Positions 11,404 through 46,033 of a stretch of 46,033 nucleotides of DNA are shown in pieces. Below the pieces are notes generated by a model. The model worked only from the letters and a program-made list of their open reading frames with translations, was not told the origin of the DNA and did no database searches. Numbering within the stretch: the stretch's first letter is position 1; every line of letters starts with the position of its first letter. The translations under genes and the position numbers were made by a program. The DNA is from an uncultured Eubacterium sp. (lineage in GTDB: Bacteria > Bacillota > Clostridia > Oscillospirales > Acutalibacteraceae), in assembly GCF_945980375.1 (NCBI RefSeq), contig NZ_CAMFQO010000010.1, positions 1-46,033 of the forward strand, in the 5' to 3' direction.

Positions 11404-13125
11404 ATGAATGATTCAATATTAGAAGCAATCAGCGAAAATGTTTTTGGAGTCTGGTTTTTAATCGGCGCTGCCCTGGTATTCTTTATGCAATGTGGCTTTG
11501 CTATGGTTGAAAGTGGTTTTACAAGGGCAAAAAACGCAGGAAACATTATTATGAAAAACCTTATGGATTTCTGCATCGGCTCTGTAATGTTTATACTTAT
11601 AGGCTATAGCTTAATGTTCAGCAAAGATTATATTGCCGGACTTTTTGGTTTACCGAACCTTGGCCTGTTAACAAATTATTCGGGCTCAAGCGGTGACTGG
11701 TCAAATTTTGTATTTAACCTTGTTTTCTGTGCAACAGCGGCAACTATCGTTTCAGGCGCTATGGCAGAGAGAACAAAGTTCAGCTCGTACTGCATTTATT
11801 CAGCGGTAATTTCAGCAGTCGTTTATCCTATTGAGGCAGGCTGGATTTGGAATCCTGACGGTTGGCTTGCACAAATGGGCTTCCACGATTACGCAGGCTC
11901 AACGGCTATTCATATGGTTGGCGGTATCGCTGCTCTTATCGGTGCAATGTTTCTTGGCCCTCGTATCGGCAAGTATGTTGTTGATAAGAAGACCGGCAAG
12001 AAAAAGGCAAAGGCTATACCGGGTCACTCATTAACTCTCGGTGCTCTCGGTGTGTTCATCCTTTGGTTTGGCTGGTACGGCTTCAACGGTGCAGCAGCAA
12101 AGGATATTGACACATTGGCGTCAATCTTTTTAACAACAACTCTTGCACCGGCAGTTGCTACCTGTGTAACAATGATATTCACTTGGATTAAGGACGGCAA
12201 GCCGGATGTGTCAATGTCACTTAACGCATCCCTTGCAGGCTTGGTTGCAATTACCGCTCCGTGCGATTGTGTAAACGCACTCGGTTCAATTATAATCGGT
12301 GCCGTTTCGGGTATTCTTGTTGTAGTGGTTGTTGAGCTTCTTGACAAAAAGCTGCACATTGATGACCCTGTCGGCGCGGTTGGTGTTCATATGGCAAACG
12401 GTATTTGGGGTACTCTTGCAGTCGGCCTTTTCTCAACAGGCTACGACGGCGTAGGTAAGGGCTTGTTCTACGGCGGTGGCTTTAAGCAGTTAGGTATTCA
12501 ATTTGTAGGCTTTGCCTCGGTTGCAGCTTGGACTGTTGTTACTATGGTTGTTGTATTTGCAATCATCAAAAAGACAAACGGTCTTCGAGTTTCTGCCGAG
12601 GAAGAAATCAAGGGACTTGACGCAACAGAGCACAATCTGCCGTCCGCATATGCAGACTTTGTTCCTGCAAATGTTCTTATTGCATCAAGCAACACATATG
12701 CTCCTGCACAGTCGGTTGAAAAGGCTGTACCTGTTGAAACATTTACAACCAAGACAGACGCTGTTCTTTCAAAGGTTGTTATGATATTCAATCCGTCAAA
12801 GTTTGAGGAGCTTAAGGAGGCCATGAACGAAATCGGTGTAACCGGTATGACAGCCACAAATGTTATGGGCTGCGGTGTGCAAAAGGGACACATCAGAAAA
12901 TACCGTGGTGTAGAGATTGAGGAAATGAGCCTCCATCCAAAGATGAAGCTTGAAATGGTTGTATCGGCAGTTCCTGTTAAAAAGGTTATTGAGGCAGCGC
13001 GAGCTGTGCTTTACACAGGTAATATCGGTGACGGTAAAATCTTTGTATACGATGTTGATGACGTTGTTAAGGTTCGTACAGGCGAGCATGGATATGACGC
13101 ACTTCAGGGCGTTGACGACGAATAA
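11404..13125 (+). CDS. amt: Ammonium transporter fused to a PII regulatory domain
   Basis: 573 residues. Residues 1-~410 are an Amt channel with about eleven helices; FFMQCGFAMVESGFTRAKNAG and AIHMVGGIAALIGAMFLGPR are typical. After a ~45-residue linker, residues ~455-565 are a PII (GlnB/GlnK) domain: VVMIFNPSKFEELKEAMNEIGV, VMGCGVQKGH, the T-loop, then VVSAVPVKKVIEAARAVLYTGNIGDGKIFVYDVDDVVKVRTGE with the nucleotide-binding residues. PII proteins plug Amt pores in response to ATP/ADP and 2-oxoglutarate; here gate and channel are one chain. The T-loop reads KYRGVEIEEM, keeping the first Tyr but lacking the Tyr51 that is uridylylated in enterics. AGGAGAAACTTAAT precedes the ATG. Confidence 0.95.
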   Translation: MNDSILEAISENVFGVWFLIGAALVFFMQCGFAMVESGFTRAKNAGNIIMKNLMDFCIGSVMFILIGYSLMFSKDYIAGLFGLPNLGLLTNYSGSSGDWSNFVFNLVFCATAATIVSGAMAERTKFSSYCIYSAVISAVVYPIEAGWIWNPDGWLAQMGFHDYAGSTAIHMVGGIAALIGAMFLGPRIGKYVVDKKTGKKKAKAIPGHSLTLGALGVFILWFGWYGFNGAAAKDIDTLASIFLTTTLAPAVATCVTMIFTWIKDGKPDVSMSLNASLAGLVAITAPCDCVNALGSIIIGAVSGILVVVVVELLDKKLHIDDPVGAVGVHMANGIWGTLAVGLFSTGYDGVGKGLFYGGGFKQLGIQFVGFASVAAWTVVTMVVVFAIIKKTNGLRVSAEEEIKGLDATEHNLPSAYADFVPANVLIASSNTYAPAQSVEKAVPVETFTTKTDAVLSKVVMIFNPSKFEELKEAMNEIGVTGMTATNVMGCGVQKGHIRKYRGVEIEEMSLHPKMKLEMVVSAVPVKKVIEAARAVLYTGNIGDGKIFVYDVDDVVKVRTGEHGYDALQGVDDE

Positions 13126-13138
13126 AAACAATAAAAAT

Positions 13139-13239
13139 GCCTCCCGTATATTATGGGAGGCGGGTTGCTTTGGCAACGTGCGGGCTTTGAAATCCTGCAC
13201 ATTACCTTATGCTCAATAGCTCCCTTTGTACAAGGGAGC
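13139..13239 (+). terminator. Array of four hairpins between amt and the glutamate synthase genes
   Basis: Four stems lie in 101 bases. They are GCCTCCC/GGGAGGC (13139-13161), GTTGC/GCAAC (13164-13177), GTGCGGG/CCTGCAC with one G-U pair (13178-13200), and GCTCCCTT/AAGGGAGC (13219-13239). The first is probably the amt terminator, although no T tract follows. The last is followed by a T-rich stretch and leads into the next ribosome site. The density suggests a folded RNA or a mobile palindromic repeat. Confidence 0.55.
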
Positions 13240-13274
13240 CTTGTTCAATTTTATAAAAATAAAGGAGAGAGGTT

Positions 13275-14378
13275 ATGTTAAGAGAGGGACAAATCAGAAT
13301 CCCGTCGGGCTGTGCGATTGCGGCGATTATTGACAGAAAGGGCAATAAAATCAACGGCTCTGAAATCATTAAATCCATTGCACTTATGCACGACAGGTCA
13401 AACGGTCTCGGCGGTGGATTCGCCGCCTACGGTATTTATCCTGAACATAAGGATGAATATGCTATTCACGTGTTTTATGATAATGCGCAGGCAAAAAAAT
13501 CCTGCGAGGAGTTTTTGTTTAAGCATTTTAATATCGATGTCGCAGAAAAAATACCAACCCGTCAGGTTCCAAGCATTGAAAACGGACCTGACATTTGGCG
13601 TTATTTCGGCAAGGCAAACAGAGTAAGAATGAAAAGTGCTCGCCTTGATGAGCTTGAGTATGTTGCACAGTGCGTAACAAAGGTAAACAATTCCGTCGAC
13701 GGTGCATACATCTTTTCAAGCGGTAAAAATATGGGATGCTTTAAGGCTGTCGGTTATCCCGAGGATGTAGGCGAGTTTTATATGCTTGACCAATATGATG
13801 CATATCTTTGGACAGCACACGGAAGATTTCCAACCAACACTCCGGGCTGGTGGGGAGGCTCTCACCCGTTCAACATTCTTGATTGGTCAATAGTACATAA
13901 CGGAGAAATTTCCTCTTACGATGCAAACAGAAGATATATCGAGCAGTTCGGATATATTTGTACAATGCAAACAGATACAGAGGTTATCACATATTTGTTT
14001 GACCATTTGCTTCGTCACCACAATCTTCCTATTGAGGTTGCCGCTGATGTTTTGACGGCACCCGAATGGGATGAGATTGACCGAATGGATGACGAGAGAA
14101 AGGAATACTTTACCAATCTTCGCTCAATTTACAGCGGAGCCTTGGTTAACGGTCCGTTTTCTGTTATTCTCGGCTCAAACAAGGGCCTGCTTGCTATTAA
14201 CGATAGACTCAAGCTTCGTTCGTTAACTGCGGCAACAAAGGGTGACAGAGCATACTTTGCAAGTGAGGAATCGGCTATAAGAATTATTTGTCCAAATCCC
14301 GAAAAGGTTTGGTCGGTAAGCGGCGCAGAGCCTGTTTTCATTCCTCTTGAAATTGATGAAGAGGAGGTTGATTACTAA
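13275..14378 (+). CDS. Glutamate synthase, class II glutamine amidotransferase subunit
   Basis: 367 residues. The nucleophile is Cys13 in IPSGCAIAA, implying removal of a 12-residue propeptide as in other Ntn amidotransferases. Further motifs are TAHGRFPTNTPGWWGGSHPF and WSIVHNGEISSYDANRRYIE, the conserved Arg and Asn-Gly of the glutaminase site. It releases ammonia from glutamine for the FMN subunit encoded next. In most bacteria this domain is the N-terminus of the ~1,500-residue GltB; here it is a separate gene, the archaeal/clostridial arrangement. Its stop overlaps the next start by one base (TAATG), showing translational coupling. Confidence 0.92.
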   Translation: MLREGQIRIPSGCAIAAIIDRKGNKINGSEIIKSIALMHDRSNGLGGGFAAYGIYPEHKDEYAIHVFYDNAQAKKSCEEFLFKHFNIDVAEKIPTRQVPSIENGPDIWRYFGKANRVRMKSARLDELEYVAQCVTKVNNSVDGAYIFSSGKNMGCFKAVGYPEDVGEFYMLDQYDAYLWTAHGRFPTNTPGWWGGSHPFNILDWSIVHNGEISSYDANRRYIEQFGYICTMQTDTEVITYLFDHLLRHHNLPIEVAADVLTAPEWDEIDRMDDERKEYFTNLRSIYSGALVNGPFSVILGSNKGLLAINDRLKLRSLTAATKGDRAYFASEESAIRIICPNPEKVWSVSGAEPVFIPLEIDEEEVDY

Positions 14379-29889: not shown

Positions 29890-29922
29890 AAAATTCCGTC
29901 CACTATCGTGAACGGAATTTTA
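29889..29922 (-). terminator. Terminator of the serine recombinase
   Basis: AAATTCCGT / ACGGAATTT with inner CAC/GTG pairing (29891-29920), followed on the minus strand by TTTTTA, overlaps the recombinase stop. Confidence 0.75.
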
Positions 29923-31389
29923 TGGCTCCCCCTCGCAAATGACGGGGGAACAATTTGAAAATGCTTCAACTTCACTTAACGGAATGGTTTGTGTTCCGTC
30001 TTGATAATTTAATATCAAATCTAATTTATCGTCATACAAATAAATCGCATTAACGAATGTGTTTATCAGCTTTCTGCGATTAAATAATTTTGTTGGGTCA
30101 ATGCCTTTGAACTGCTCTAAATAAAATCTCAATTTGTTTTCATCAATGAGATTGCTTTCCATTTGCTCCCTTGCAATTTCTATCTGTAAATTGTTGCATT
30201 GCATTTCCAGCTCGTCAAGCCTTTGCTTTGTCGTTGCATTTACAATTCCCATTTCAATTGCATTAAGTAGATTGGCTTTTCGTTTTTCAACATCGGCTAA
30301 TTCTGCTTCAAGCGTTGGCAAAACTCTGTTGCCTTTCTCTTGATAGATTAAAACATTCTTTATGATTTCATTTATTGCTTCAGGGTTGTTTACAATCTTC
30401 ATTATTCTATCAATGACGAAATCTTCAATTCGTTCTTTTTTGATAGTTTTCTTATCGCAACCGTAATGATACTTTACTCCGACACATTTGTAGTAACGAT
30501 ACTTAACACCGTTTCTATTCGTACCACTTTCACCTGCCATCATTCTGCCACACTTACCGCAGAACAGTTTTGTAGTAAGCAGGTATTCACAATCTGCCTT
30601 GTAATGACTTGGTGCTTTCTTGTTCATCACCATTCTTTCCTGTACTCGAAGGAATAATGATTCGGGTACAATGGCTGGCATACCGCCCGGCACAACAACA
30701 TCCTTGAATTTGTATTCGCCGATATACTTTCTGTTGTGCAACATATTAGTTATACAATTTATTGAAATCTTTTTACCTCTCTGCGTTTTCAAACCACGAG
30801 CATTAAAATCTGATGCAATCTGCTGAATCGTTGTTCCGTTGTCGTACATATTAAATGCTTCAAGAACAATAGGAGCATACTGCTCATCAACGATATAATT
30901 TAGATTTTCGTCAACTGCAAAACCTAACGGACACAAGCCACCATTATGCTTACACTTCAAGGCATTTTCGGTCATACCACGCAAGGTCTTTTCGCCGAGT
31001 TCTTTAGAATAATATTCAGCCATACCCTCAAGCATTGATTCCAAGAGCACACCCTCTGCACCTTCACTAATCGTTTCCGTTGCAGAGATTACCTTTACTC
31101 CATTCTTACGAAGAATAGATTTATAATGTGCCGAGTCGTAACGATTACGAGCAAATCTATCAAGTTTCCAGACAATAATAATTTCAAATGCGTGTTTACT
31201 ACTTTCAGCTATCATGTGCTGAAACTCCGGACGATTGGCCGTCGTAGCCGATTTTGCCCTATCTATGTATTCACCAACGATAGTCATTCCGTTGCGTTCG
31301 GCAAATGCTTTACACTCACGAAGCTGACCTTCAATAGACTCCTCACGCTGATTGTCACTTGAATATCGAGCATATATTACTGCATTCAC
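29920..31389 (-). CDS. Large serine recombinase
   Basis: 489 residues from a GTG at 31389 (VNAVIYARYSSDNQ), with GAGGTGATATAT upstream. The N-terminal resolvase domain has the catalytic Ser in ARYSSDNQREESIEGQ and the Arg cluster WKLDRFARNRYDSA. A recombinase domain (LGFAVDENLNYIVDEQYAP...) follows, then a zinc ribbon (LFCGKCGRMMAGESG...YKCVG...CDKK) and a coiled coil near 380-430. Such enzymes integrate and excise mobile elements. No other element genes flank it and no att repeat was found, so it may be a remnant or a lone insertion. Confidence 0.94.
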   Translation of the reverse strand: MNAVIYARYSSDNQREESIEGQLRECKAFAERNGMTIVGEYIDRAKSATTANRPEFQHMIAESSKHAFEIIIVWKLDRFARNRYDSAHYKSILRKNGVKVISATETISEGAEGVLLESMLEGMAEYYSKELGEKTLRGMTENALKCKHNGGLCPLGFAVDENLNYIVDEQYAPIVLEAFNMYDNGTTIQQIASDFNARGLKTQRGKKISINCITNMLHNRKYIGEYKFKDVVVPGGMPAIVPESLFLRVQERMVMNKKAPSHYKADCEYLLTTKLFCGKCGRMMAGESGTNRNGVKYRYYKCVGVKYHYGCDKKTIKKERIEDFVIDRIMKIVNNPEAINEIIKNVLIYQEKGNRVLPTLEAELADVEKRKANLLNAIEMGIVNATTKQRLDELEMQCNNLQIEIAREQMESNLIDENKLRFYLEQFKGIDPTKLFNRRKLINTFVNAIYLYDDKLDLILNYQDGTQTIPLSEVEAFSNCSPVICEGEP

Positions 31390-31407
31390 ATATATCACCT
31401 CAAGTGT

Positions 31408-31436
31408 ATATAACCATAACAAAAACCTTTTTGCAA
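31408..31436 (-). promoter_or_regulatory. Promoter of the serine recombinase
   Basis: TTGCAA (31436-31431), 17 bases, then TTATAT (31413-31408) on the minus strand, about 20 bases before the ribosome site. Confidence 0.55.
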
Positions 31437-31488
31437 GTCGTTTTGAAAATTATGTTTTTTTTGTACAAATTTGAGTACTATCATAGCA

Positions 31489-31519
31489 AAAGGCTGATGC
31501 AAAATCTGCACCAGCCTTT
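31489..31519 (-). terminator. Hairpin downstream of the dGTPase-like gene
   Basis: AAAGGCTGATGCA pairs with TGCACCAGCCTTT (one mismatch, loop 5), followed on the minus strand by TTTTG. It probably ends the dgt transcript, though 185 bases past the stop. The rest of 31437-31704 is AT-rich with no supported gene. Confidence 0.6.
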
Positions 31520-31704
31520 ATATAGAAATTAACAACAAGCAATATAAAACATAAAAAAGCATAATTGCCAATATAGCTTTTATCATTTAAAGCAACTGCT
31601 TTTGTGAAACAAATCCCTGTTACAGTAGATATATCACGATTTGTTTCTGTTTTGGGATAATTCTTGTAATTGTATTTTTTGTAAACTCTAATGTATTTTG
31701 ATTT

Positions 31705-32919
31705 TTATTTAAAATACGGCTCATATTCTATTTTGTGTTTACTATCCGGGAACAGATGCTTGTGCAAATCAATAAAGTAATCATCTGTCATACTCGCTAT
31801 GTAATCTACAACAATTTGATTTTTCTCTTCTGCCGAATATTCGACACCGTGATATTGCTTCAAGGCGTTACCTATCGGGTTAATATGATGCTTATAAATT
31901 ATTGAGTCAGTATCATTTCTCTTTACATCATCAAGAAGCTTATAATACAACTCTTCAAACATAGGCTTGATGCTTTTGTCATACTGCTGATTTATTGTAT
32001 TGTTATTATATATTACTTGGTAATTTTCTTTTTTTGCCGTGCTTAAATCCTTGAAAGCGGTGTCGCTGAGCATTATATAATCCTTGCCGTAGCTATGCTC
32101 AATAATATCAACTGTTAAATTGTTTATTATTTTTGCATTTTCCGTGCCTATCAGTTCTGTGTTGAATTTATAGTCAGGTTCAATTATTCCTGCCAGCACA
32201 GCATCTTGTCTGTCCTTGCCTAAATAGGCTATCATATCGCATATACGAACAACACAGCCCTCAAGCGTTGAGGGAATAAGTCTTTTAATTGCACGAGCAC
32301 CCTCTATATAGCAAGCCTCAACCTCTTTATCATATTCATTAAAAGTCTTTGAATACTGCGGTCTATACTCCTGCTGCTCAAATTCACCGTTATGACACAG
32401 TACACCGTCTAAGGTCTGCAATGTAAAATTCCGTGCAAAAATTCTATCAAGCACTCTTGTACTGTGAACATTGTGATTAAAATATCTGCCCGTTTCATTG
32501 TGGTATAATTCACTCAAAAATCTTTCGCCTGCATGACCGAAGGGCGTATGACCTATATCGTGACCTAATGCAATAGCCTCAATCAAATCAAGATTTAATC
32601 CTAATACCGAGCCGATATTTCTGGCAATTCGGGATACAAGCTGAACATGCTGTGCCCTTCTCGTTATATCGTCATTGTTTTTAAAAGAGAATACCTGTGT
32701 TTTATCAGCGTACCTGTTGTAATAAGGCAGGTGCATTATTTTTTCTGTGTCACGGACAAAAACAGGGCGCCACAAATTAGCCTTGTCCACACTGTTGTCA
32801 CGCCTTATTGCATTTTCATCCTTGAACGCATAAGGATTAACCCAGTGATTTTTCCTGTCATATTTGATTTTTTGCTGTAATTCTTCATTGATTTTGTTAA
32901 ATTTCAAGGCATCTGCCAT
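31705..32919 (-). CDS. dgt: dGTPase-like HD-domain dNTP triphosphohydrolase
   Basis: 404 residues. The HD metal site is RAQHVQLVSRIAR, then LGHDIGHTPFGHAGE, and later VRICDMIAYLGKDRQDA. The N-terminus (NLWRPVFVRDTEKIMHLPYYNRYADKTQVF) is the dGTPase pattern. It cleaves dGTP, or dNTPs, to the nucleoside and triphosphate. Besides nucleotide balance, members of this family deplete dNTPs during phage infection. Its place next to a nuclease/retron cluster makes that role worth considering, but sequence alone does not decide. GGAGTTGAGC precedes the ATG. Confidence 0.9.
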   Translation of the reverse strand: MADALKFNKINEELQQKIKYDRKNHWVNPYAFKDENAIRRDNSVDKANLWRPVFVRDTEKIMHLPYYNRYADKTQVFSFKNNDDITRRAQHVQLVSRIARNIGSVLGLNLDLIEAIALGHDIGHTPFGHAGERFLSELYHNETGRYFNHNVHSTRVLDRIFARNFTLQTLDGVLCHNGEFEQQEYRPQYSKTFNEYDKEVEACYIEGARAIKRLIPSTLEGCVVRICDMIAYLGKDRQDAVLAGIIEPDYKFNTELIGTENAKIINNLTVDIIEHSYGKDYIMLSDTAFKDLSTAKKENYQVIYNNNTINQQYDKSIKPMFEELYYKLLDDVKRNDTDSIIYKHHINPIGNALKQYHGVEYSAEEKNQIVVDYIASMTDDYFIDLHKHLFPDSKHKIEYEPYFK

Positions 32920-32944
32920 AATTGCTCAACTCCGTTTCATACTT

Positions 32945-32974
32945 ATTCTAAAATAATGAGTAATGAAATGTCAA
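32945..32974 (-). promoter_or_regulatory. Promoter of the dGTPase-like gene
   Basis: TTGACA (32974-32969), an 18-base spacer and TAGAAT (32950-32945) on the minus strand, about 25 bases before the ATG. It lies in the divergent region shared with the WYL gene. Confidence 0.65.
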
Positions 32975-33065
32975 TACTCTATCATTATAAGTGATGTACT
33001 GTTTTTATCGCATAAGGTATTGTATTATTGTGCCGTAAGATGTAAAATGTATATGAGGTGATTTT

Positions 33066-34124
33066 ATGGCAATCGGCAGACCGAAGAAAATGATGAATAT
33101 GTATATCCTTGATATACTCAAGAGAAATACTGACATTGACCACGCAATAACCCAAAAGGAAATTCAAAAAAGGCTTGAAACGGAATACGATATGGTTGTT
33201 GACAGAAAGGCTGTTAAGGCTAATCTTGAGGACCTTATCAATGACGACACTTACGATATTTACTGCGAAACGAAAACCCGTTTAACGCCTAATGCAAAAA
33301 CAGGAGAGTTAGAGAAAAGCGAGGTTTGCACAGGCTTTTATCATGAGTCAAAATTTACCGATTCAGAGTTAAGACTGCTTATTGACTCCGTTCTTTTTTC
33401 AAAAAGCATTCCCACTCATAACAAGTCGGCTATCATTGATAATCTTAAATCTCTCTCAAACAAGTATTTCAAATTCAATGTCGGTCATATTAAATCCTTT
33501 GAATCTGCCGACAGAGAGATTAACAAAAATCTGTTTTTCACTATTGAAACGCTTAACGAGGCCATTGACAAAGGACTTCAGGTTAAGTTCCATTACAACG
33601 AATACGGTGCAGATAAAAAGCTACATAACCGCCTTGATGATAACGGAGAGCCGAGGGAATACATAATCAACCCTTACCAAATTGTTGCCACTAACGGCAG
33701 ATATTATCTTATCTGCAACTATGATAAGTATGACGATTTGGCAAATTACAGGCTTGACAGGATAACGGATATTGAGCTTTTAGACACTCCGAGAAAGCCA
33801 AAGAATAAGGTTCAGGGACTTGTTGGTCTTGATATTGCGCAGTATATGAACGAGCATATTTATATGTTTACAGGCAAATCTGTCAGAGCAAAATTTGAAG
33901 CACCAAAATACTTGATTTCGGACATTCTTGACTATTTCAAGGCATATGTAAATTTCAAAGAGCTTGACGAAAAGAATGTAATCGCAACGGTTAAGGCTAA
34001 CGAAACAGACCTTCGCCTGTGGGCAAGGCAGTATGCAGGGCAGATTAAAATTACCGAGCCGACAGAGCTTACCCAAGCATGCAAGCAGGATTTATTAGAG
34101 GCTATTAAATTATATGAGGACTGA
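33066..34124 (+). CDS. WYL-domain transcriptional regulator
   Basis: 352 residues. An N-terminal winged helix (DHAITQKEIQKRLETEYDMVVDRKAVKANLEDL) is followed by a WYL domain: VKFHYNEYGADKKL..., REYIINPYQIVATNGRYYLICNYDKYDDLANYRLDRITDIELLD, and a C-terminal extension. WYL regulators bind nucleotides or nucleic acid and control DNA-damage and phage-defence genes. It is the first gene of a co-directional run with a DUF2779 nuclease, a PD-(D/E)XK protein and a retron. GAGGTGATTTT precedes the ATG. Confidence 0.9.
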   Translation: MAIGRPKKMMNMYILDILKRNTDIDHAITQKEIQKRLETEYDMVVDRKAVKANLEDLINDDTYDIYCETKTRLTPNAKTGELEKSEVCTGFYHESKFTDSELRLLIDSVLFSKSIPTHNKSAIIDNLKSLSNKYFKFNVGHIKSFESADREINKNLFFTIETLNEAIDKGLQVKFHYNEYGADKKLHNRLDDNGEPREYIINPYQIVATNGRYYLICNYDKYDDLANYRLDRITDIELLDTPRKPKNKVQGLVGLDIAQYMNEHIYMFTGKSVRAKFEAPKYLISDILDYFKAYVNFKELDEKNVIATVKANETDLRLWARQYAGQIKITEPTELTQACKQDLLEAIKLYED

Positions 34125-34126
34125 CT

Positions 34127-35608
34127 ATGAATTTAAGTAAATCAAAATATGTAAGAGGCTTGCAATGTCCTAAAATGCTGTGGATGGACAGGTACAAGCC
34201 TGAAATGGCAGAGCAAAATCCCGCACTTGAAGGTATTTTTGCCACAGGCAATGAGGTTGGCGACCTGGCACGCAGATACTTTGGCGAATATGACCTTGTT
34301 GATTTTGATTTGGGCATTGACAGTATGCTCAGGCAAACACAGGAATTTATAAATAACGGCAGTAAAAACATTGCAGAGGCAAGCTTTTATGTAGACAACC
34401 TTTTTTGCAGTGTTGATATTCTGCATAAAAATCCCTACGGCTGGGATATTGTTGAGGTTAAAAGCTCAACCGCCGTTCACGATGTTTATCTTGACGATAT
34501 GGCTTTTCAGCTTTATGTGCTTAATAAGGCCGGGCTAAATATCACAGGCGTTTACAATATGCACCTTAATTCAAATTATGTCCGCTACGGTGATTTGGAT
34601 TTAAATCAGCTTTTTGTGCTTGAAGATTGCACTGAAATCTGTATGTTTAAGCAAGGTGATGTTCAGCAGAATATAGCAGATATTTGCAGATATATGGCTA
34701 TGGCTGATGATTTTGAGCCTGAAAAGGATATTGATGTTTGCTGTGAAAGTCCTTATGAATGTGCTTATAAAGGCTACTGTTCAAGGCATTTGCCATACCC
34801 ATCTGTTTTTAATATCAGCAGGCTTAATACAAATAAAAAGTATGAGTTTTATCATAACGGCATTATCAGCTTTGAGGATATTGAAAAGAAAAAGCCAAAG
34901 CTTTCTGCAAAGCAATGGCAACAGGTTGATACGGCATATTATCATTACGCGCCCACTATTGATAAAATAGGCATTAGGTCTTGTATTGAACAATACACAT
35001 ATCCTCTTTACTATCTTGATTTTGAAACATATCAGCCTGCCGTACCGCCCTATGACGGAATAAAGCCGTATATGCAGGTAACCTTTCAGTATTCACTTCA
35101 TATTCAGTATGAAAAGGGCGGAGAGTTGGAGCACAGGGAATTTTTAGGCGAGGCAGGTGTTGACCCTCGCAGAGCCTTGGCAGAACAGCTTTGCAGAGAT
35201 ATACCAAAAGATGTTTGCACCCTTGCATACAATATGTCCTTTGAAAAGACGAGAATTAAGGAGCTGGCAAATCAGTTTCCCGACCTTGCAGAGCACCTTA
35301 TGAATATCCACGATAATATCAAGGATTTGATGCTCCCCTTTCAAAATCACTACTATTACAGCAAAGCCCTTGAAGGCTCATACTCAATCAAGAAGGTGCT
35401 ACCTGCCCTTTGCCCTAACGACCCCGAGCTTGATTATCACGCACTTGAGGGAATACATAACGGCGGTGAGGCTATGCAGGCATACCCGGACCTTGTAAAT
35501 CATACACCCGAGGAGCAGGCAATTATCCGCAAAAACCTCCTCGCCTATTGCCGATTAGACACTCTCGCAATGGTCAAGGTGCTGGAAAAGCTGTATGATA
35601 TGTGTTAG
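34127..35608 (+). CDS. DUF2779 protein: Cas4-like nuclease fused to a DEDD-like exonuclease
   Basis: 493 residues. It starts MNLSKSKYVRGLQCPKMLWM with a Cys that, together with the cluster CCESPYECAYKGYC (~residue 205), resembles the 4Fe-4S ligands of Cas4/AddB-type nucleases. The PD-(D/E)XK core shows SVDILHKNPYGWDIVEVKSS. The C-terminal DUF2779 has YYLDFETYQPAVPPYDG, AYNMSFEKTRI and AYCRLDTLAMVKVLEKL, an RNase H/DEDD exonuclease pattern. It starts 2 bases after the WYL stop. A DNA-processing role in defence or repair is inferred; no experimental role is known to me. Confidence 0.85.
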   Translation: MNLSKSKYVRGLQCPKMLWMDRYKPEMAEQNPALEGIFATGNEVGDLARRYFGEYDLVDFDLGIDSMLRQTQEFINNGSKNIAEASFYVDNLFCSVDILHKNPYGWDIVEVKSSTAVHDVYLDDMAFQLYVLNKAGLNITGVYNMHLNSNYVRYGDLDLNQLFVLEDCTEICMFKQGDVQQNIADICRYMAMADDFEPEKDIDVCCESPYECAYKGYCSRHLPYPSVFNISRLNTNKKYEFYHNGIISFEDIEKKKPKLSAKQWQQVDTAYYHYAPTIDKIGIRSCIEQYTYPLYYLDFETYQPAVPPYDGIKPYMQVTFQYSLHIQYEKGGELEHREFLGEAGVDPRRALAEQLCRDIPKDVCTLAYNMSFEKTRIKELANQFPDLAEHLMNIHDNIKDLMLPFQNHYYYSKALEGSYSIKKVLPALCPNDPELDYHALEGIHNGGEAMQAYPDLVNHTPEEQAIIRKNLLAYCRLDTLAMVKVLEKLYDMC

Positions 35609-35632
35609 GATATAATAAAGGAGATGCGTTTA

Positions 35633-36859
35633 ATGAAAAAATACGAAGCCGATATTTTCGATATGTTAGGAATTAATGGAAGAGAAGATAGCTACACTAA
35701 TTTGTTAAAAGTGCTTTTTGACAATGTTTTAGAGTACAGATCTTTTTTACTTAATATGTTGTTTCCCAAGGAAGCATTAGACCCTGATGCATTTTATTTT
35801 GAAACAAGAAACAAATATTCTCGGAAAGATTCAAATGAAAAAAATCATAATGAAATACCTGATATAATTATTGTGGATAAGAGTGGTAATCATTTTGCCC
35901 TAATTGAAGTGAAAATTTTTTCGGGAGAGGGTGATCGCCAAACGGAAAGATACTATAATCTATTTTCAAACGACATTCCAGATATAACGATTCACGATTG
36001 TAATAAAGAAAATATTCCCATTAGAAAAAATGCTGTTAGAAAATTTTATTTTTTAACTATTTATGAAAGCAAAGCTCAATGCGAAGAATTTATAAACATT
36101 AAATGGTCAAGAATCATAGAACCTCTTAAACAAATTCAAATAAAAAATGAGTATTTGAATTTGCTCGCAAAGTCTTTAATTAACAAGGTTGAAAGCAGTA
36201 AAACCATTGATTCTATATCAAAGGATATGATTTGGAATGATTCGATGGGTTTTGGCTGGGCAAAAGAGCAAAATCTTTTCAAAGTGCTAAAATCCTTCTG
36301 CTTTAAGGATGAAGAAATATGGGACTATTATGAAAGCTGGAATGGCTACAACAAGGATTCAAATACTTATGAGTTAAAATGCTTGTTTGGCAGAGAATGC
36401 TGGAGAGGGATACATCTTAAAAATATTAACAACGATAATTTGGAAAAATGCTTTGAGTTCCACTACGAATTTGCATACAGCCCAAATGAAGACAGAATTA
36501 CCGTAAGGCTGGATTATCATTTGAGGCCGTATCTGTCAATCTCCGATATAAATAAATGCAAATTTTATAACAAAGCCAGTTTTTACGATGTCCCAGAAGA
36601 AGATTACAACAAAATTAAAGATTTGGCAAACAGAGCCAATGAAATAAGGAAAAACAAAGCTGACGAAATCAAAAACAGTATAATGAATTCTACTAATAAT
36701 GACAGTATAATTCGAGTGAAAAACAATAGCAATCCAATGATTTTAGTAAAACAATCTATTGATGGTACAAGCAAAAAAACAATAGAAGAAATAACAAAAA
36801 TAATAAATGTTTTTGTGAAAAACACAAAGACAATAATTGATGATTTTGTTGCAAAGTAA
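35633..36859 (+). CDS. PD-(D/E)XK nuclease-superfamily protein (PF14281-like)
   Basis: 408 residues from the ATG at 35633, with AAAGGAG nine bases upstream; an ATG at 35624 overlaps that site. The N-terminus EADIFDMLGINGREDSYTNLLKVLF and the catalytic set PDIIIVDKSGNHFALIEVKIFSGEGDRQTERYY (Asp, then Glu-x-Lys) match the PDDEXK_4 group. The middle has many aromatic residues (GMGFGWAKEQNLF, WRGIHLKNI), and the last ~100 residues are Lys/Asn-rich and probably helical. It is very AT-rich relative to the upstream genes, suggesting transfer. It ends 31 bases before the retron RNA gene and is the most likely retron partner. Confidence 0.8.
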   Translation: MKKYEADIFDMLGINGREDSYTNLLKVLFDNVLEYRSFLLNMLFPKEALDPDAFYFETRNKYSRKDSNEKNHNEIPDIIIVDKSGNHFALIEVKIFSGEGDRQTERYYNLFSNDIPDITIHDCNKENIPIRKNAVRKFYFLTIYESKAQCEEFINIKWSRIIEPLKQIQIKNEYLNLLAKSLINKVESSKTIDSISKDMIWNDSMGFGWAKEQNLFKVLKSFCFKDEEIWDYYESWNGYNKDSNTYELKCLFGRECWRGIHLKNINNDNLEKCFEFHYEFAYSPNEDRITVRLDYHLRPYLSISDINKCKFYNKASFYDVPEEDYNKIKDLANRANEIRKNKADEIKNSIMNSTNNDSIIRVKNNSNPMILVKQSIDGTSKKTIEEITKIINVFVKNTKTIIDDFVAK

Positions 36860-36890
36860 TAGTTTTAATAAAAATTTGTAATATGTGTTT

Positions 36891-37064
36891 AAAACAGCGG
36901 TGATAGCGTTACTTTAATTGAGATTAAAGTTGGTCAGCGAGTCGTTGACTGTAATCAAAAAATTGTCTGCAACATACGAAAACTGCTTCGCTTAATCAAA
37001 ATTCACTGCACGAATCAGAATTAAGCTACGCACCATTCTTATCATTTTGTATCACCGCTGTTTT
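36891..37064 (+). ncRNA. Retron msr-msd RNA gene
   Basis: The a1 repeat AAAACAGCGGTGATA (36891-36905) is perfectly complementary over 15 bases to a2 TATCACCGCTGTTTT (37050-37064). Directly after a1 comes GC in a TAGCG context, so the branching guanosine would be 36906, as in the TAGC/AGC start of known msr. Hairpin 1 has an 8-bp stem ACTTTAAT / ATTAAAGT with a TGAG loop (36911-36930). Hairpin 2 is GTCAGC / GTTGAC (36933-36949). The msd arm pairs GCTTAAT with ATTAAGC (36990-37026), plus TGC/GCA outside and ATTC/GAAT inside. A retron RT follows at once. Confidence 0.88.
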
Positions 37065-37076
37065 TATTTGAAAAAT

Positions 37077-37964
37077 ATGGAAAGTAAACTTATATCCGGT
37101 GTTAGCAACAGAGAGTTATATTATATCTCAAACAACACCGACAAATTTTACAATAGAATATCAATACCCAAGAAAACCGGTGGAGTAAGAATGGTATATG
37201 CTCCTAAACCACAATTGAAATGGTGTCAACATTATATTGCAGAAAATTATCTTGATGTTTATAGGGAATCCAAGTATGCAACCGCATATCATAAGGGCTC
37301 AAATATTCTTGCTAACGCTTCTCCTCATTGCAACAAGAAGAATATTTTAAAGCTTGATATTGAAAATTTTTTTGGCAGTATTACATTTATGCAGGTATAT
37401 AATGTTTTTTATAAATGTTATCCTGCAAATGTCAGCAAACAGTTGGCAGAGCTTTGCTGTTATCATGACAGTCTTGTTCAAGGCTCACCGGCATCACCGA
37501 AATTATCAAATGTGGTTATGTATAGTTTTGATAACAAAATCGGAAAGTGGTGCGAGGAAAGAAATATTACCTACACTCGCTATTGTGATGATTTAACATT
37601 TTCATCAAATGATGATTTGCATAGTGTTTATTACAAGGTTAAGTCCTTACTAAAGAGTAATAGATTTTATTTAAACAATAAAAAAACACATTTTGTAAAT
37701 GCAAATCACAGGCAAAGTGTTACCGGAATAGTGGTTAACGAATTTCCTCAAGTATCAAAAGAGTATAGAAAAAAGCTTAGACAGGAAATATATTATTGTC
37801 AAAAATATGGTATAAAAAATCATTTAAAACACATTGGTTCCGATTTAACCGAAGAAGAATACTGTAAGGTGTTAAAGGGCAAGATTAATTATGTTTTATC
37901 TGTAAATCCAAATGATTTAGAATTTAAGAATTTGCAACAATCGTTATACAGGGATAATATTTAA
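37077..37964 (+). CDS. Retron reverse transcriptase
   Basis: 295 residues from the ATG at 37077. RT motifs in order are PKKTGGVRMVYAP (RT1, ~31-43), NASPH (80-84, the retron NAxxH), LKLDIENFFGSI (motif A, ~91-102), QGSPASP (135-141), YCDD (169-172, catalytic) and VTG (215-217, the retron primer/RNA-recognition motif). NAxxH and VTG together separate retron RTs from group II intron and DGR enzymes. No clear ribosome site is visible because the start lies just after a2; TTG codons at 37047 and 37068 are in frame. It would convert the upstream RNA into a branched RNA-DNA hybrid (msDNA). Confidence 0.93.
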   Translation: MESKLISGVSNRELYYISNNTDKFYNRISIPKKTGGVRMVYAPKPQLKWCQHYIAENYLDVYRESKYATAYHKGSNILANASPHCNKKNILKLDIENFFGSITFMQVYNVFYKCYPANVSKQLAELCCYHDSLVQGSPASPKLSNVVMYSFDNKIGKWCEERNITYTRYCDDLTFSSNDDLHSVYYKVKSLLKSNRFYLNNKKTHFVNANHRQSVTGIVVNEFPQVSKEYRKKLRQEIYYCQKYGIKNHLKHIGSDLTEEEYCKVLKGKINYVLSVNPNDLEFKNLQQSLYRDNI

Positions 37965-37994: not shown

Positions 37995-38705
37995 ATGACC
38001 TACGTAATTTCCGACCTACACGGTTATCCGCTTGAAAAATTTAAAATGCTGCTTGGCAAAGCCGGGTTTTGTGATGATGACGAATTGTTTATTCTCGGTG
38101 ATGTTGTTGACCGAAACGGTGACGGCGGAGTAGAAATGCTCTGCTGGTTACTTTCTCAACCCAACATTTACTTGATTTTCGGCAATCACGAGGCTATGCT
38201 TTTGTCCTGCTCATTTGTATTGGAGCAGGTAACGGACGAATTTGTTGAGTCGCTGTCAAAGCATAATCAAATTGAAATTTTGAGCGAGTATATGTTCAAC
38301 GGCGGTGATGTTACATTAAAGGCACTTAGCGAGCTGAACAAAAAATCGCCCGAAGCAGTTGCAGATATATTTGATTATCTTCGTGAGGCACCGCTTTACG
38401 ATATAGTTGAAATCGGCGGCACAAACTATTTGCTGACACACAGCGGTATTGATAATTTTGAAAAGGGCAAGCCGTTATCAAGCTATACACCTGATGATTT
38501 TCTGTGGAACAGACCGAAGCTTGACGATGAATATTTTGAAAAATCAATAACCGTTTTCGGTCATACCCCCACAATCTGCTTTGGCGAGGAATACAAAGGT
38601 GAAATCATCAAAACGAAAACCTGGATTGACATTGATGTGGGTGCGGCAGGCGGATTTGAGCCTGTCCTTCTCCGTCTTGATGATATGAAGGAATTTAGAA
38701 ACTAA
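37995..38705 (+). CDS. PP2A/ApaH-like metallophosphoesterase
   Basis: 236 residues. Motifs of the bacterial Ser/Thr-phosphatase/ApaH group are ISDLHGYPLEKF, FILGDVVDRNGDGGVEML, IFGNHEAMLL, LLTHSGID and VFGHTPTICFG with a final DIDVGAAGG. It could remove phosphate from proteins or cleave dinucleotide polyphosphates. It starts 30 bases after the retron RT, with AAAGAGATATAAACT upstream, so it may be in the same transcript. Base composition is less AT-rich than the RT, arguing for a different origin. A retron role is possible but not indicated by known systems. Confidence 0.88.
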   Translation: MTYVISDLHGYPLEKFKMLLGKAGFCDDDELFILGDVVDRNGDGGVEMLCWLLSQPNIYLIFGNHEAMLLSCSFVLEQVTDEFVESLSKHNQIEILSEYMFNGGDVTLKALSELNKKSPEAVADIFDYLREAPLYDIVEIGGTNYLLTHSGIDNFEKGKPLSSYTPDDFLWNRPKLDDEYFEKSITVFGHTPTICFGEEYKGEIIKTKTWIDIDVGAAGGFEPVLLRLDDMKEFRN

Positions 38706-38815: not shown

Positions 38816-39256
38816 GTGATTACCATAAAAATTAAGGCTTTAAGCAGAGAAAAGGCTATCAGGCTAAGTTATAGTGATTTTGATGATGCCAAAATAATTA
38901 TATCTATCAGAGACCCGAATAAAGTTAAGCCGGAATTTAATATCAATAACAGCTCGATAAAGGATATTTTGTATCTGTCATTTTTCGACATCAGTGAGGA
39001 AACAAAAAGCATTTTCGGCGGGTACGAATCTATGTCGCCCATTGATGCAATTTTGATTCGTGATTTTGTTTTGAAATGGCAGGGCGAAATTGACACAATA
39101 TGGGTTCAATGCGAAATAGGAATGTCACGCAGTGCAGGAATTGCGGCAGCCATTATGGAGTATTTTGATATGGATTCAAAGAAGATACTCGAAAGCAATC
39201 AGTATTATCCAAATAGGCTATGCTATAACCTAACTAAAGGTGCATTTAACAAATAA
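38816..39256 (+). CDS. Tyrosine/dual-specificity phosphatase-like protein
   Basis: The CX5R signature is in VQCEIGMSRSAG, with a possible general acid in SFFDIS. Length is ~143-146 residues, a minimal PTP-like fold. The first codon is unclear. A GTG at 38816 is only one base after AGGAGG, too close. By alignment with the paralogue at 41402 (MKVTIYSRKAVE) the protein should start at codon 38825, which is ATA, ten bases from AGGAGG, reading (M)KIKALSREKAI. Start is therefore GTG, ATT or a non-standard ATA. It lies between defence-type genes; no substrate is known. Confidence 0.75.
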   Translation: MITIKIKALSREKAIRLSYSDFDDAKIIISIRDPNKVKPEFNINNSSIKDILYLSFFDISEETKSIFGGYESMSPIDAILIRDFVLKWQGEIDTIWVQCEIGMSRSAGIAAAIMEYFDMDSKKILESNQYYPNRLCYNLTKGAFNK

Positions 39257-41401: not shown

Positions 41402-41848
41402 TTAAAGGCTGTTTAATGCATCATATATTTTGTTGAAAATCAGTTGATTTGGATAATATTTGTAATCCCGGAATATATCTATGCCTCTGTGTTCATAATG
41501 TTCAAGTATTGCGGCGGCACAGCCTGCGCTACGGCTTTGCCCGTATTCGCATTGACAGATTATATCCATCCCGTCATTTTTTGCCTTGTCAATAAACTTG
41601 GCAAGCACATTTACCTCGGGGAAATATGTTTCATAAGTAAGACCGAAATCCCCAAGCACCTCAATATCAATGTCATAAATCGGAACATAAAACACTCTGT
41701 CAGCCTTGCCCGAATAATCAACAAGTGCATAATCGTTCTTGTTTCTGCGGTCAATGGGGTCGTAAAAGCTGATAACCGCCGTGTTTTCGGGAAAACCGTT
41801 TCGCAGTAACGACTCAACTGCTTTTCTTGAATAGATCGTAACCTTCAT
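41402..41848 (-). CDS. Second tyrosine/dual-specificity phosphatase-like protein
   Basis: 148 residues from the ATG at 41848 (MKVTIYSRKAVE), with AAAGGAGTTGATTTT upstream. The active-site loop is QCEYGQSRSAG (CX5R), preceded by VPIYDID and followed by AAAILEHYEHRGIDIF and YYPNQLIFNKIYDAL. It is a paralogue of the protein at 38816: the loop and the YYPN-x-L tail match. The two copies flank two unrecognised genes and lie on opposite strands. Its function in this island is unknown. Confidence 0.8.
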   Translation of the reverse strand: MKVTIYSRKAVESLLRNGFPENTAVISFYDPIDRRNKNDYALVDYSGKADRVFYVPIYDIDIEVLGDFGLTYETYFPEVNVLAKFIDKAKNDGMDIICQCEYGQSRSAGCAAAILEHYEHRGIDIFRDYKYYPNQLIFNKIYDALNSL

Positions 41849-41927
41849 AAAATCAACTCCTTTATACATATAATAACACAGCAGATGCACCGAAATTAGT
41901 ACATCTGCTGTATGCTTGATTATTTAC

Positions 41928-43262: not shown

Positions 43263-46033
43263 ATGAACGATAAGGAAATACGAAAAATACTGATTTCATA
43301 TCTTGAAGCTGTTTGCAGTGAGGTTAGAATTTATCAAGAAAAAAACATCGGTTCATCAATTTGTGATATTATGGCTGTTACAAATTGTTTAACGGGTTTT
43401 GAAATAAAAAGTGATGCAGATAATTACACAAGACTTCAATATCAAGTGAATTCATATGATAAATTTTTTGATAAAAACTATATCGTTGTTAGTTCAAAGC
43501 ACGAAAAATCAGTTCCAAACAAAGTGCCTGACCACTGGGGGATAATGAGCATAAAAAACGATAGCATTGAAATTATCAAAAAAGCAAAAAAGAGCCCTAA
43601 TGTAAGCAGATACCAACAGTTGTCTGTTTTGTGGAAAGTTGAGCTTAACAATATATTGATTAAAAACAATATGCCGATTTTTGCTCAAAAAAATAAAAAC
43701 TATATTAAATCTCAACTATCAGACAATGTTGACGAGAAAATTCTCGGTGAACAAATTGCATATGAACTTCTTAAAAGAGATTATTCCGTTTTTAACGCAA
43801 CTGATTATACAATTCATGCAAATTCTAATATCCCGGAGTTTGAAATTATTGATTGCCTATCCGAAGAAAATGAGATGAATTATTCACTTGATGAATGGAT
43901 AAATCTTTATAGAAAGGCTCAGGAATTAAAGGCTGAAAAGAAAGCTATATATAGAAATTCTCCTGTAATAAGACCTGCTCACAAAATTAAATATACTGAT
44001 ATTGAAGTCCGCTTGGGTGCTCCGTGGATTTCAAAGGATATAATTGGAGAATTTATATTCTATATAATCAATGGAAAAGAGGCAAAAGACTCAAAGTCAT
44101 ATTTTGTAGAATATGATGATGTCACAGGCAACTGGAATATACCGAATAAGAATTACTACGGCGACAATTTAAGATGTAAAGTTGAATTCGGGACAAATAG
44201 GTATAATGCACTTTATATAATTGAAGCAACCCTTAATTTAAGACCAATAAAAATCTGCAATGGCGGAGTATTTGACGAAAAAGAAACAATACTTGCTGTT
44301 GAAAAACAGAAAATAATCATAGAGGAATTCAGTAATTGGATATGGAAAAGTGAGGATAGAATTTGGGAGGTAGAGGAAGCATATAACAAGGCTTTTGCGG
44401 AATTTAATAAGAAAAATTACGATGGAAGCCGTCTTGAATTTCCTGAGATAGCCGATGGATTTGAGCTTTATGATTACCAAAAAGATGCTGTACAAAAAAT
44501 AATTTCAGAAAAAAACACACTTCTTGCATTTGATGTAGGAGCCGGAAAAACATACATTATGATTGCGGCAGCTATGAAAATGCGACAAATGGGTATTTCG
44601 CGAAAAAATCTTTTTGTTGTGCCAAATAATATAGTCGGTCAGTGGGAAAAGATGTTCCTGACGCTATATCCAAAAGCAAAGTTGTTAACGATTGATTCAA
44701 AAACATTCAAACCAGCATTAAGAGAAAAGGTTCTTATTCAAATACGTGACGGCGATTATGACGGAATAATAATGGCTTATAGTTGTTTTGAAATGATACC
44801 GTTATCCAGCAACTATGTGCTAAGCCAAATGGAAAAGGATATAGAAGAATTAAATATAGCCGTCCGTCAATACACCGGATACTCCTATGAACAATCGCAA
44901 AGGTGCAAAGCTCGAGATAATATTAAGAATCTTGCGTATAAGTTTATGCAAAGTATGGATAAAAAGCCTGTCCATAATGTCACGTTTGACGAGCTTGAAA
45001 TAAACACAATTTTTCTTGACGAGGCACATAATTTCAAAAATATTCCCATTAAAACAAAAATGCGTGATTTAACAGGGATAAACACAAAAGGTTCATTGAA
45101 ATGCCTTGAAATGCAAAGAAAAATACAATGCGTTCAGGAGCAAAACGGTGGCAGAGGAGCAGTGTTTGCAACAGGTACTCCGCTTTGTAATTCTATTTCC
45201 GATGCGTATGCTATGCAAATGTATTTGCAAAGAGAAAAAATGCACGAGTTAAAGCTTGATATTTTTGATAACTGGGTTAAAACATTTGCCGCACCCGAAG
45301 AAATATGTGAAATTGATGTAGATACTTCAAAGTTCAGAATAGTAAGAAGATTTGCAAGGTTTTTTAATTTAAAGGAATTATCAAAAATGTTTTCATCTAT
45401 TGCTGTTTTTCACGCAGTTGAGCAAACAGGGTTGCCAAAGTTAAATGGATATACAGATGTTGTTATACACAAAAACAAAGCTCTTCGTAATTATATGCTT
45501 TCCCTTTGTGAACGCACAGCGCTGATAAGAGATAAGGTCGTTGACAAATCACATGATAATATGTTGAAAGTCAGTGCCGATGGACGAAAGGCAGCGCTTG
45601 ATTTGAATTTGGTAGGGAAAGAACAAAAATACGATAAAACATCAAAGGTGTTTTTATGCGTAAAAAGAGTTGTTGAAATATACAACAAATATTCGGACAC
45701 TTCTCAACTTATATTTTGCGACTATTCAACTCCAAAAGGCGACAGATTCAATGTTTATGATAAGCTTAAAGAGCTGTTAATTGATAGCGGAATAAAAGCA
45801 AAAGAAATTGCTTTTATTCATTCTTACCAAACAGAAGCAAGAAAAATGAAACTTTATCAAGAGGTTAATGAAGGAAAGATTAAAATTCTGATAGGCTCAA
45901 CCTTTAAACTCGGAATCGGTGCAAATGTTCAAACAAAGTTAAAGGCGATACATCATCTTGATGTACCTTGGCGTCCTGCCGATGTAGGACGGATTTTGCG
46001 GACATTCAAAATAAAAAAGAATGTGGAGGTAAC
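43263..46033 (+). CDS. sce7726-like nuclease domain fused to an SNF2-type helicase, 3' end off the window
   Basis: An open frame from the ATG at 43263 (AGGGTG upstream) reaches the right edge without a stop, at least 923 residues. Residues ~1-185 match the sce7726 family: SICDIMAVTNCLTGFEIKSD, ADNYTRLQYQVNSYDKFFD, VPDHWGI. EIKSD could be the nuclease E-x-K. From ~410 an SNF2/DEAH helicase follows: Walker A FDVGAGKTYIM (~424), VVPNNIVGQWEKM, DEAH in LDEAHNFKN (~586), ATGTPLCNS (~637), and a C-terminal lobe with LIGSTFKLGIGANVQ and LDVPWRPADVGRILR (~900). A DNA-remodelling or cleaving defence role is inferred. The gene was probably overlooked by closed-frame scans because it lacks a stop. Confidence 0.85.
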   Translation, partial: MNDKEIRKILISYLEAVCSEVRIYQEKNIGSSICDIMAVTNCLTGFEIKSDADNYTRLQYQVNSYDKFFDKNYIVVSSKHEKSVPNKVPDHWGIMSIKNDSIEIIKKAKKSPNVSRYQQLSVLWKVELNNILIKNNMPIFAQKNKNYIKSQLSDNVDEKILGEQIAYELLKRDYSVFNATDYTIHANSNIPEFEIIDCLSEENEMNYSLDEWINLYRKAQELKAEKKAIYRNSPVIRPAHKIKYTDIEVRLGAPWISKDIIGEFIFYIINGKEAKDSKSYFVEYDDVTGNWNIPNKNYYGDNLRCKVEFGTNRYNALYIIEATLNLRPIKICNGGVFDEKETILAVEKQKIIIEEFSNWIWKSEDRIWEVEEAYNKAFAEFNKKNYDGSRLEFPEIADGFELYDYQKDAVQKIISEKNTLLAFDVGAGKTYIMIAAAMKMRQMGISRKNLFVVPNNIVGQWEKMFLTLYPKAKLLTIDSKTFKPALREKVLIQIRDGDYDGIIMAYSCFEMIPLSSNYVLSQMEKDIEELNIAVRQYTGYSYEQSQRCKARDNIKNLAYKFMQSMDKKPVHNVTFDELEINTIFLDEAHNFKNIPIKTKMRDLTGINTKGSLKCLEMQRKIQCVQEQNGGRGAVFATGTPLCNSISDAYAMQMYLQREKMHELKLDIFDNWVKTFAAPEEICEIDVDTSKFRIVRRFARFFNLKELSKMFSSIAVFHAVEQTGLPKLNGYTDVVIHKNKALRNYMLSLCERTALIRDKVVDKSHDNMLKVSADGRKAALDLNLVGKEQKYDKTSKVFLCVKRVVEIYNKYSDTSQLIFCDYSTPKGDRFNVYDKLKELLIDSGIKAKEIAFIHSYQTEARKMKLYQEVNEGKIKILIGSTFKLGIGANVQTKLKAIHHLDVPWRPADVGRILRTFKIKKNVEV

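Follow-up and report, generated by a model that had tools for sequence, protein, structure and literature searches.

Retrons of the kind considered here were first seen as Ec107 in Escherichia coli, an element whose cDNA is 107 nt long and whose site we take to be the slmA-pyrE junction. In passages of a review, Ec107 is described as replacing a palindromic 34 bp, as having the YCDD motif, and as starvation-induced in its expression; the section on accessory ORFs names none for Ec107, and on its role the review, where it takes this up, offers only hypotheses (PMC6868368). Retron synthesis is described as priming at a branched G, with the RT-DNA length set by host RNase H1 (passages in PMC8867640 and PMC8989520), and retron phage defense is reported to need the RT, the RT-DNA, and an accessory protein (a passage in PMC8989520). 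Some retrons seem to be without proximal effectors, according to a passage in PMC8867640, and among the literature matches listed none was specific to effector-less retrons. Type III-A retrons are described in PMC12548924 with phosphoribosyltransferase (PRTase) and winged-helix genes.

Here, we analyze a 46,033-nt stretch of DNA (the window) from an uncultured Eubacterium sp. in which an RNA gene is followed by a reverse transcriptase (RT) gene. Taking together its anatomy, its assignment to the Ec107-like retrons, and the absence of an effector in cis, we read the element as a two-part Ec107-like retron, with a probability of roughly 0.88.

Anatomy of the Locus

The retron RNA gene occupies 36891-37064 (174 nt) and is bounded by an a1/a2 repeat that is 15/15 complementary, with 144 nt separating the arms, which confirms the coordinates and lengths of the original prediction. 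The RT ORF opens with an ATG at 37077, 12 nt 3' of a2, and its stop ends at 37964; the 295-aa translation carries the expected NAxxH, YCDD, and VTG motifs as NASPH, YCDD, and VTG. The features are as follows.

36891-36905, + strand: a1 arm, 15/15 complementary to 37050-37064
36906, + strand: predicted branching G (2'-5' priming nucleotide), first base past a1; priming role by analogy
36911-36930, + strand: msr hairpin 1, from the fold of the window RNA; weakly supported by relatives (57% of cells)
36932-36950, + strand: msr hairpin 2 with the GCGAGTCG core; 94.3% of cells paired
36955-37049, + strand: predicted msd template, ~95 nt with uncertain ends, inferred from alignment with Ec107
36978-37038, + strand: msd stem; main stem pairs kept in 77.8% of cells
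37001-37015, + strand: msd tip hairpin; tip pairs kept in 94.5% of cells
37050-37064, + strand: a2 arm, 15/15 complementary to a1
37077-37964, + strand: retron RT, 295 aa, Ec107-like by PADLOC and the E. coli alignment; NCBIfam and PDB matches are to the St85 and Ec86 retron RTs
35624-36859, + strand: upstream flanking gene, 411 aa, PD-(D/E)XK-like (PDDEXK_4 and PDC-S26 matches), outside the retron
37995-38705, + strand: downstream flanking gene, metallophosphatase (Pfam Metallophos, 9e-11), outside the retron

The retron begins 31 nt after the upstream gene and ends 30 nt ahead of the downstream one. No other exact 15-bp inverted repeat in the window has arms that start 60-260 nt from each other, and the longest comparable repeat in 1,000 dinucleotide shuffles of the 217-nt intergenic region was 13. 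Folding of region 36885-37070 gave z = -3.75. A search against RNA models, which had been proposed along with the original prediction, returned no Rfam match at the gathering threshold anywhere in the window. Sequence and conservation together support the earlier description of a complete retron.

Conservation and Covariation of the Retron RNA

The RNA was compared across a set of 44 loci, consisting of the window, L002-L004, and 40 whole-genome loci; two further RT matches at E <= 1e-40 were excluded, one on a short contig (G123) and one at 36% identity (G216). A motif search succeeded at 39 of the 44 loci and, with E. coli locus L121 added, gave 40 candidates. Poorly delimited RNAs or those of another type (L004, L056, L082, L083, L085, L090, and L094) were left out, and the covariation alignment contains 33 RNAs, L121 included. 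The msd and msr structure tested in these relatives derives from the window RNA's own fold.

Across the 33 RNAs, the window structure is paired in 80.5% of cells, vs. 58.1% for shuffled and 36-46% for slid versions (maximum 45.5%), and double-sided changes number 381 vs. 140.1 in shuffles. The a1/a2 arms were picked by complementarity, unlike the msd tip, msr hairpin 2, and the msd stem; their pairing is kept in 95.2% of cells, with both sides changed at 13 of 15 pairs. Unconserved a1/a2 pairing had been named beforehand as an argument against a retron, and the outcome is the opposite, a pairing conserved with compensatory changes. Both sides have also changed at five of the eight pairs of msr hairpin 2. 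Covariation backs this hairpin and the msd stem, as predicted; the other predicted msr hairpin is present in the fold of the window RNA, but in the alignment just 57% of the cells of its six outer pairs are standard pairs. None of the 33 sequences, E. coli included, departs from A15 and G16 of the RNA, in agreement with the branching-G context proposed after a1. Invariant as well are the GCGAGTCG core, the G preceding a2, and the first T of a2 (33/33 for these last two).

Stems of at least 10 exact pairs joining the regions of the two arms were found within their own locus at 25 of 41 loci, vs. 26 of 1,640 cross-locus pairings, in a test that used the first motif only and therefore misplaced some loci and lowered the own-locus count. 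A GCGA(A)GTCG core lies upstream of the RT at 41 of the 44 loci with related RTs; since III-A loci account for two of these (L004 and L094), the core by itself does not define the Ec107-like group. The covariance model built from the RNA alignment matches all 41 non-PRT Ec107-like loci, 32 of them in the model and nine outside it, the latter at 26 to 106 bits. Of the RNAs used to build it, that of the window scores 123.9 bits and that of L121 93.5 bits; L122, which was not used, scores 92.2 bits.

Classification of the RT

In the PADLOC ranking, the window RT matches RT_Ec107-like (PDLC03739) best, at 385 bits (6.1e-116), followed by RT_III-A at 328 bits (2e-98); the ranking is reversed for the III-A RT of L112, which served as a control (Ec107-like 320 vs. 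RT_III-A 409 bits). The NCBIfam model of the retron St85 RT gives 242 bits (cut-off 235), and the group II intron maturase model gives 55 bits (cut-off 300), the reverse of what an RT of group II intron type would give. No DGR RT is among the NCBIfam matches, in a search without a DGR-specific model. The best PDB sequence match is the Ec86 RT (1.6e-36), and the nearest named RT relatives, L002-L004, are Bacillota.

The RT tree (50 rows) pairs the window with G052, whose RT is its closest relative at 64%, with support of 100/100. The PRTase-bearing rows cluster (96/97, with one long-branch outgroup row inside), and the window RT, the E. coli RT, and the rest stand apart from that group. Locus L090, with its RT in two frames, was omitted from the tree, from the flanking-protein scan, and from the promoter and terminator counts.

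These relations bear on whether the element could be a type III-A retron stripped of its two partners, the phosphoribosyltransferase and the winged-helix protein. In favor of this, RT_III-A ranks second among the profiles, and two III-A loci share the hairpin core; given this shared core and a partial match of the covariance model at L004, the Ec107-like RNA is not wholly distinct from III-A RNAs. However, the PRTase-bearing RTs cluster apart from the window, and at the six PRTase (III-A) loci that served as a positive control for the RNA model, five gave no match and only L004 a partial one (24.9 bits). PADLOC and Pfam profiles detect no PRTase and winged-helix genes beside the window ncRNA, and the window's own genome contains no PRTase_III-A match at E <= 0.001. 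Positive-control loci L111, L112, and L114 have proteins of 285-300 aa and 103-106 aa just 5' of the RNA region, which at L112 are PRTase_III-A and WH_III-A by profile. We consider such a stripped III-A element highly improbable.

Relation to the E. coli slmA-pyrE Retron

The K-12 slmA-pyrE junction, used as a query against E. coli genomes, matched 5,374 of 5,426, and an RT is present at the junction in five of 60 evenly spaced matches listed. Between slmA and pyrE, L121 has a single annotated gene, which is preceded by an ncRNA and encodes a 319-aa RT scoring 437 bits on the PADLOC Ec107-like profile. In K-12 the gap is 36 nt, palindromic, and retron-free. Based on the place of Ec107, the palindromic K-12 gap, and the 437-bit score, we identify the slmA-pyrE retron as Retron-Eco5 (Ec107). 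The K-12 gap agrees with the replacement of a palindromic 34 bp given for Ec107 in a passage of PMC6868368.

The window RT is identical to the E. coli RT at 135 of 290 aligned residues (47%). The L121 RNA contains, in order, a1, AGCGTT, a hairpin, GGTCGGCGAGTCGCTGAC, a long msd stem, and a2; the window RNA has GGTCAGCGAGTCGTTGACT where L121 has GGTCGGCGAGTCGCTGAC. The original prediction had suggested that the element may belong to an unlisted type. That suggestion is not supported, since the best profile is RT_Ec107-like (6e-116) and the RNA plan is that of the E. coli slmA-pyrE retron. Judged by the sequences of both RT and RNA, the window retron is a new member of the known Ec107-like group and no new type, a filing that rests on PADLOC profile names and on our own comparison.

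Flanking Genes and the Search for an Effector

Alternatively, the retron might be of a new, tripartite type in which the upstream PD-(D/E)XK-like protein, alone or together with the downstream metallophosphatase, serves as the effector. The upstream gene is co-directional with the retron and stops 31 nt short of a1, where the III-A partner genes also lie, and its 411-aa product has a sub-cut-off match to Pfam PDDEXK_4 (0.0028) and a weak defense-candidate match to PADLOC PDC-S26 (1.4e-6). A retron so close behind a nuclease-like gene leaves room for a link to that gene specific to this locus. Against this, the upstream gene belongs to no neighbor cluster, the phosphatase cluster lies within five genes of the RT at no other locus, and the flanks differ at the 64% relative in G052, which is preceded by an NrdR-like gene and followed by a weak DUF4179 match next to a sigma-factor gene. 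Moreover, homologues of both flanking genes adjoin one another in G027, a genome of the same genus, where DUF2779-gene fragments are followed, in the window's order, by homologues of the 411-aa protein (54%) and the metallophosphatase (65%) that overlap by ATGA with no retron between. We regard the tripartite reading as quite unlikely.

The window retron sits exactly at the G027 overlap, and the upstream protein ends ~9 residues earlier in the window. By this comparison, the difference consists of the retron plus 31 nt of leading and 30 nt of trailing sequence, together with a small loss of target sequence, and the window retron looks, from gene order, as if it lay within a former operon. This pair alone fits a gain in the window and a loss in G027 equally. 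Three loci have retron-free counterparts. That of the window is G027 and that of the E. coli retron is K-12; for G052 it is the genome G011, whose gene order is identical apart from the missing RT, with other small ORFs, read by eye, in the gap.

Across the 44 loci, no neighbor cluster within two genes of the RT occurs at more than two, and the commonest within five genes, WYL regulators, occurs at four. PRTase homologues are confined to L004, L088, and L094; the other 41 loci, of which five have flanks shorter than 2 kb upstream and six downstream in the available sequence, have none. Flanking proteins of at least 120 aa, up to four per locus, were collected at 40 loci (151 proteins); with six very long ones omitted, every family matched among the remaining 145 at the thresholds used (Pfam 1e-5, PADLOC 1e-8) occurs in at most two proteins, and several of the families listed are metabolic enzymes. 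PRTase_III-A matches are present in seven of 40 retron-carrying genomes. The strong ones, in G296 (3.5e-82) and G551 (3.6e-18) only, each adjoin the III-A RT of that genome; five other genomes have weak matches (4e-4 to 8e-4), and these, like an additional weak match each in G296 and G551, are read as ordinary phosphoribosyltransferases. No third-part effector is conserved in cis, and the search in trans covered PRTase_III-A alone. The absence of the usual effectors, already remarked at this locus, is accordingly a trait of the Ec107-like group and not of the window locus alone; that a conserved cis effector is typically missing in the group is well supported.

The wider surroundings include several features of separate interest. 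At 29920-35608 of the window, a serine recombinase, a dGTPase-like HD protein, a WYL regulator, and a DUF2779 protein (weak Cas4 match) follow consecutively, possibly a variable island beside the retron. A same-genus genome (L056, G025:C26:157000-176900) has two Ec107-like retrons (7627-8757 and 12237-13967) in a matching WYL-DUF2779 neighborhood, a region that may be an insertion hotspot. The first lies between WYL and DUF2779 and is decayed. The RT of the second has 525 aa with a 171-aa C-terminal extension, possibly a fused effector, for which no Pfam match exceeds the cut-off. Two related small proteins are encoded at 38816-39256 and 41402-41890 of the window, one with a sub-cut-off dual-specificity phosphatase match, and two homologues (56% and 61% identity) lie near the second G025 retron. 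A large ORF with SNF2/ResIII helicase domains (43263-46031) runs off the window end; its N-terminal part is of no recognized kind.

Distribution, Selection, and Expression

Of the genomes sampled, 27 of 398 from the family and 20 of 394 from the order have an RT match at E <= 1e-40, III-A relatives included. In 300 family genomes, the covariance model gave 26 matches in 25 genomes, and all 26 adjoin an RT; no RNA copy without an RT was seen among them, with the best eight candidates per genome scored, so that weak solitary copies could be missed. In three cases (the first G025 copy, G226, and G340), the RT beside the RNA is decayed or split. Two of these loci, L150 (G340:C24:1-12000, ~4762-5952) and L090 (G226:C25), are Ec107-like retrons with an intact RNA and an RT split over two frames, through either decay or assembly error. 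A peptide-pattern scan of viral contigs found no relative, and a phage collection gave one 46% match, on the unverified fecal contig MT838960.

This distribution could also reflect a selfish or hitch-hiking retroelement without a host role, moved between sites by recombination. Its surroundings differ at nearly every locus, the RT is patchily distributed in both family and order, and decayed copies exist. The palindrome that Ec107 is described as replacing (a passage in PMC6868368) would also suit such an element. In contrast, to our knowledge no transposition route is known for retrons, the RNA is always found with an RT in the 26 matches, and RT dN/dS is 0.250 for G529/G566, 0.138 for two E. 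coli RTs, and 0.211 for G276/G185; the value for the window and G052 (0.148) is not relied on, as dS is saturated at 2.0. On balance, we judge a purely selfish element unlikely.

A promoter-like site (at least 9 of 12) precedes a1 at 20 of 36 loci vs. 6.6% of shuffles, and at 10 of 40 loci, vs. 2% of shuffles, the RT is followed within 80 nt by a terminator-like site; these shuffles keep letter pairs only as blocks. The window itself has no promoter-like match directly 5' of a1, and its retron may be read from the upstream gene.

Proposed Mechanism and Significance

We propose that the ncRNA at 36891-37064 and the downstream RT make up the whole element. The msr would be bound by the RT, and a1/a2 pairing would position the 2'-OH of G36906 as primer; the RT would then copy the msd (~36955-37049) into a ~95-nt ssDNA linked 2'-5' to the msr RNA. 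By analogy with described retrons, msDNA synthesis by branched-G priming is very likely, with G36906 as the inferred branch point and ~95 nt around 36955-37049 as the portion copied. The complement of the predicted msd template self-folds as DNA (z = -2.1; 7 of 200 shuffles are equally good).

The conservation of RT and RNA, set against neighbors that vary freely, suggests that the RT-msDNA particle functions either by itself or together with a partner encoded elsewhere. That it works with a trans partner encoded elsewhere in the host is a tentative guess, and that it acts on its own a rather doubtful one; as to its role, a stress or phage response seems the most likely guess. More broadly, the Ec107-like retrons may form a self-contained two-part class of RNA plus RT, often with its own promoter, dispersed among ordinary genes of the chromosome and kept by selection, whose msDNA particle operates without a dedicated toxin gene, a view to which we give slightly less than an even chance. 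If it is true, these retrons would be a functional branch separate from the toxin-guarding systems, with a particle that works alone or on a host protein. A three-part requirement is reported for retron defense in a passage of PMC8989520; the Ec107 group shows no cis accessory gene in this analysis. The locus supplies aligned relatives, an RNA covariance model, and retron-free loci that mark the element as RNA plus RT, and together these make whether a retron is functional without a cis effector a clean laboratory question.

Comparison with Known Retrons

Among described retrons, Retron-Eco1 (Ec86) shares the retron RT class with the window element and differs in having an NDT-like accessory protein (a passage in PMC8989520). 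Retron-Sda1 and Retron-Bth1 are likewise reported without the usual effector; the former, however, is III-A1-like with HipA/DUF3037 genes, and the latter has an unclassified RT that contains a group II intron (both from passages in PMC12548924). Type III-A retrons, such as that of Vagococcus lutrae plasmid pK136-2-B, have in common with the window the second-best RT profile group, an RNA region immediately 5' of the RT, and, at two loci, the hairpin core; they differ in the upstream PRTase_III-A and WH_III-A genes and in RNAs that the covariance model mostly misses. Retron-Eco5 (Ec107) has an RT 47% identical to that of the window with YCDD and NAxxH, and an RNA with a1, AG, the GGTCGGCGAGTCGCTGAC hairpin, an msd stem, and a2. 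Its RNA is longer (194 nt vs. 174), as is its RT (319 aa vs. 295), and it lies between convergent genes, whereas the window retron lies inside a co-directional gene pair; both consist of an ncRNA and an RT only, set between unrelated genes.
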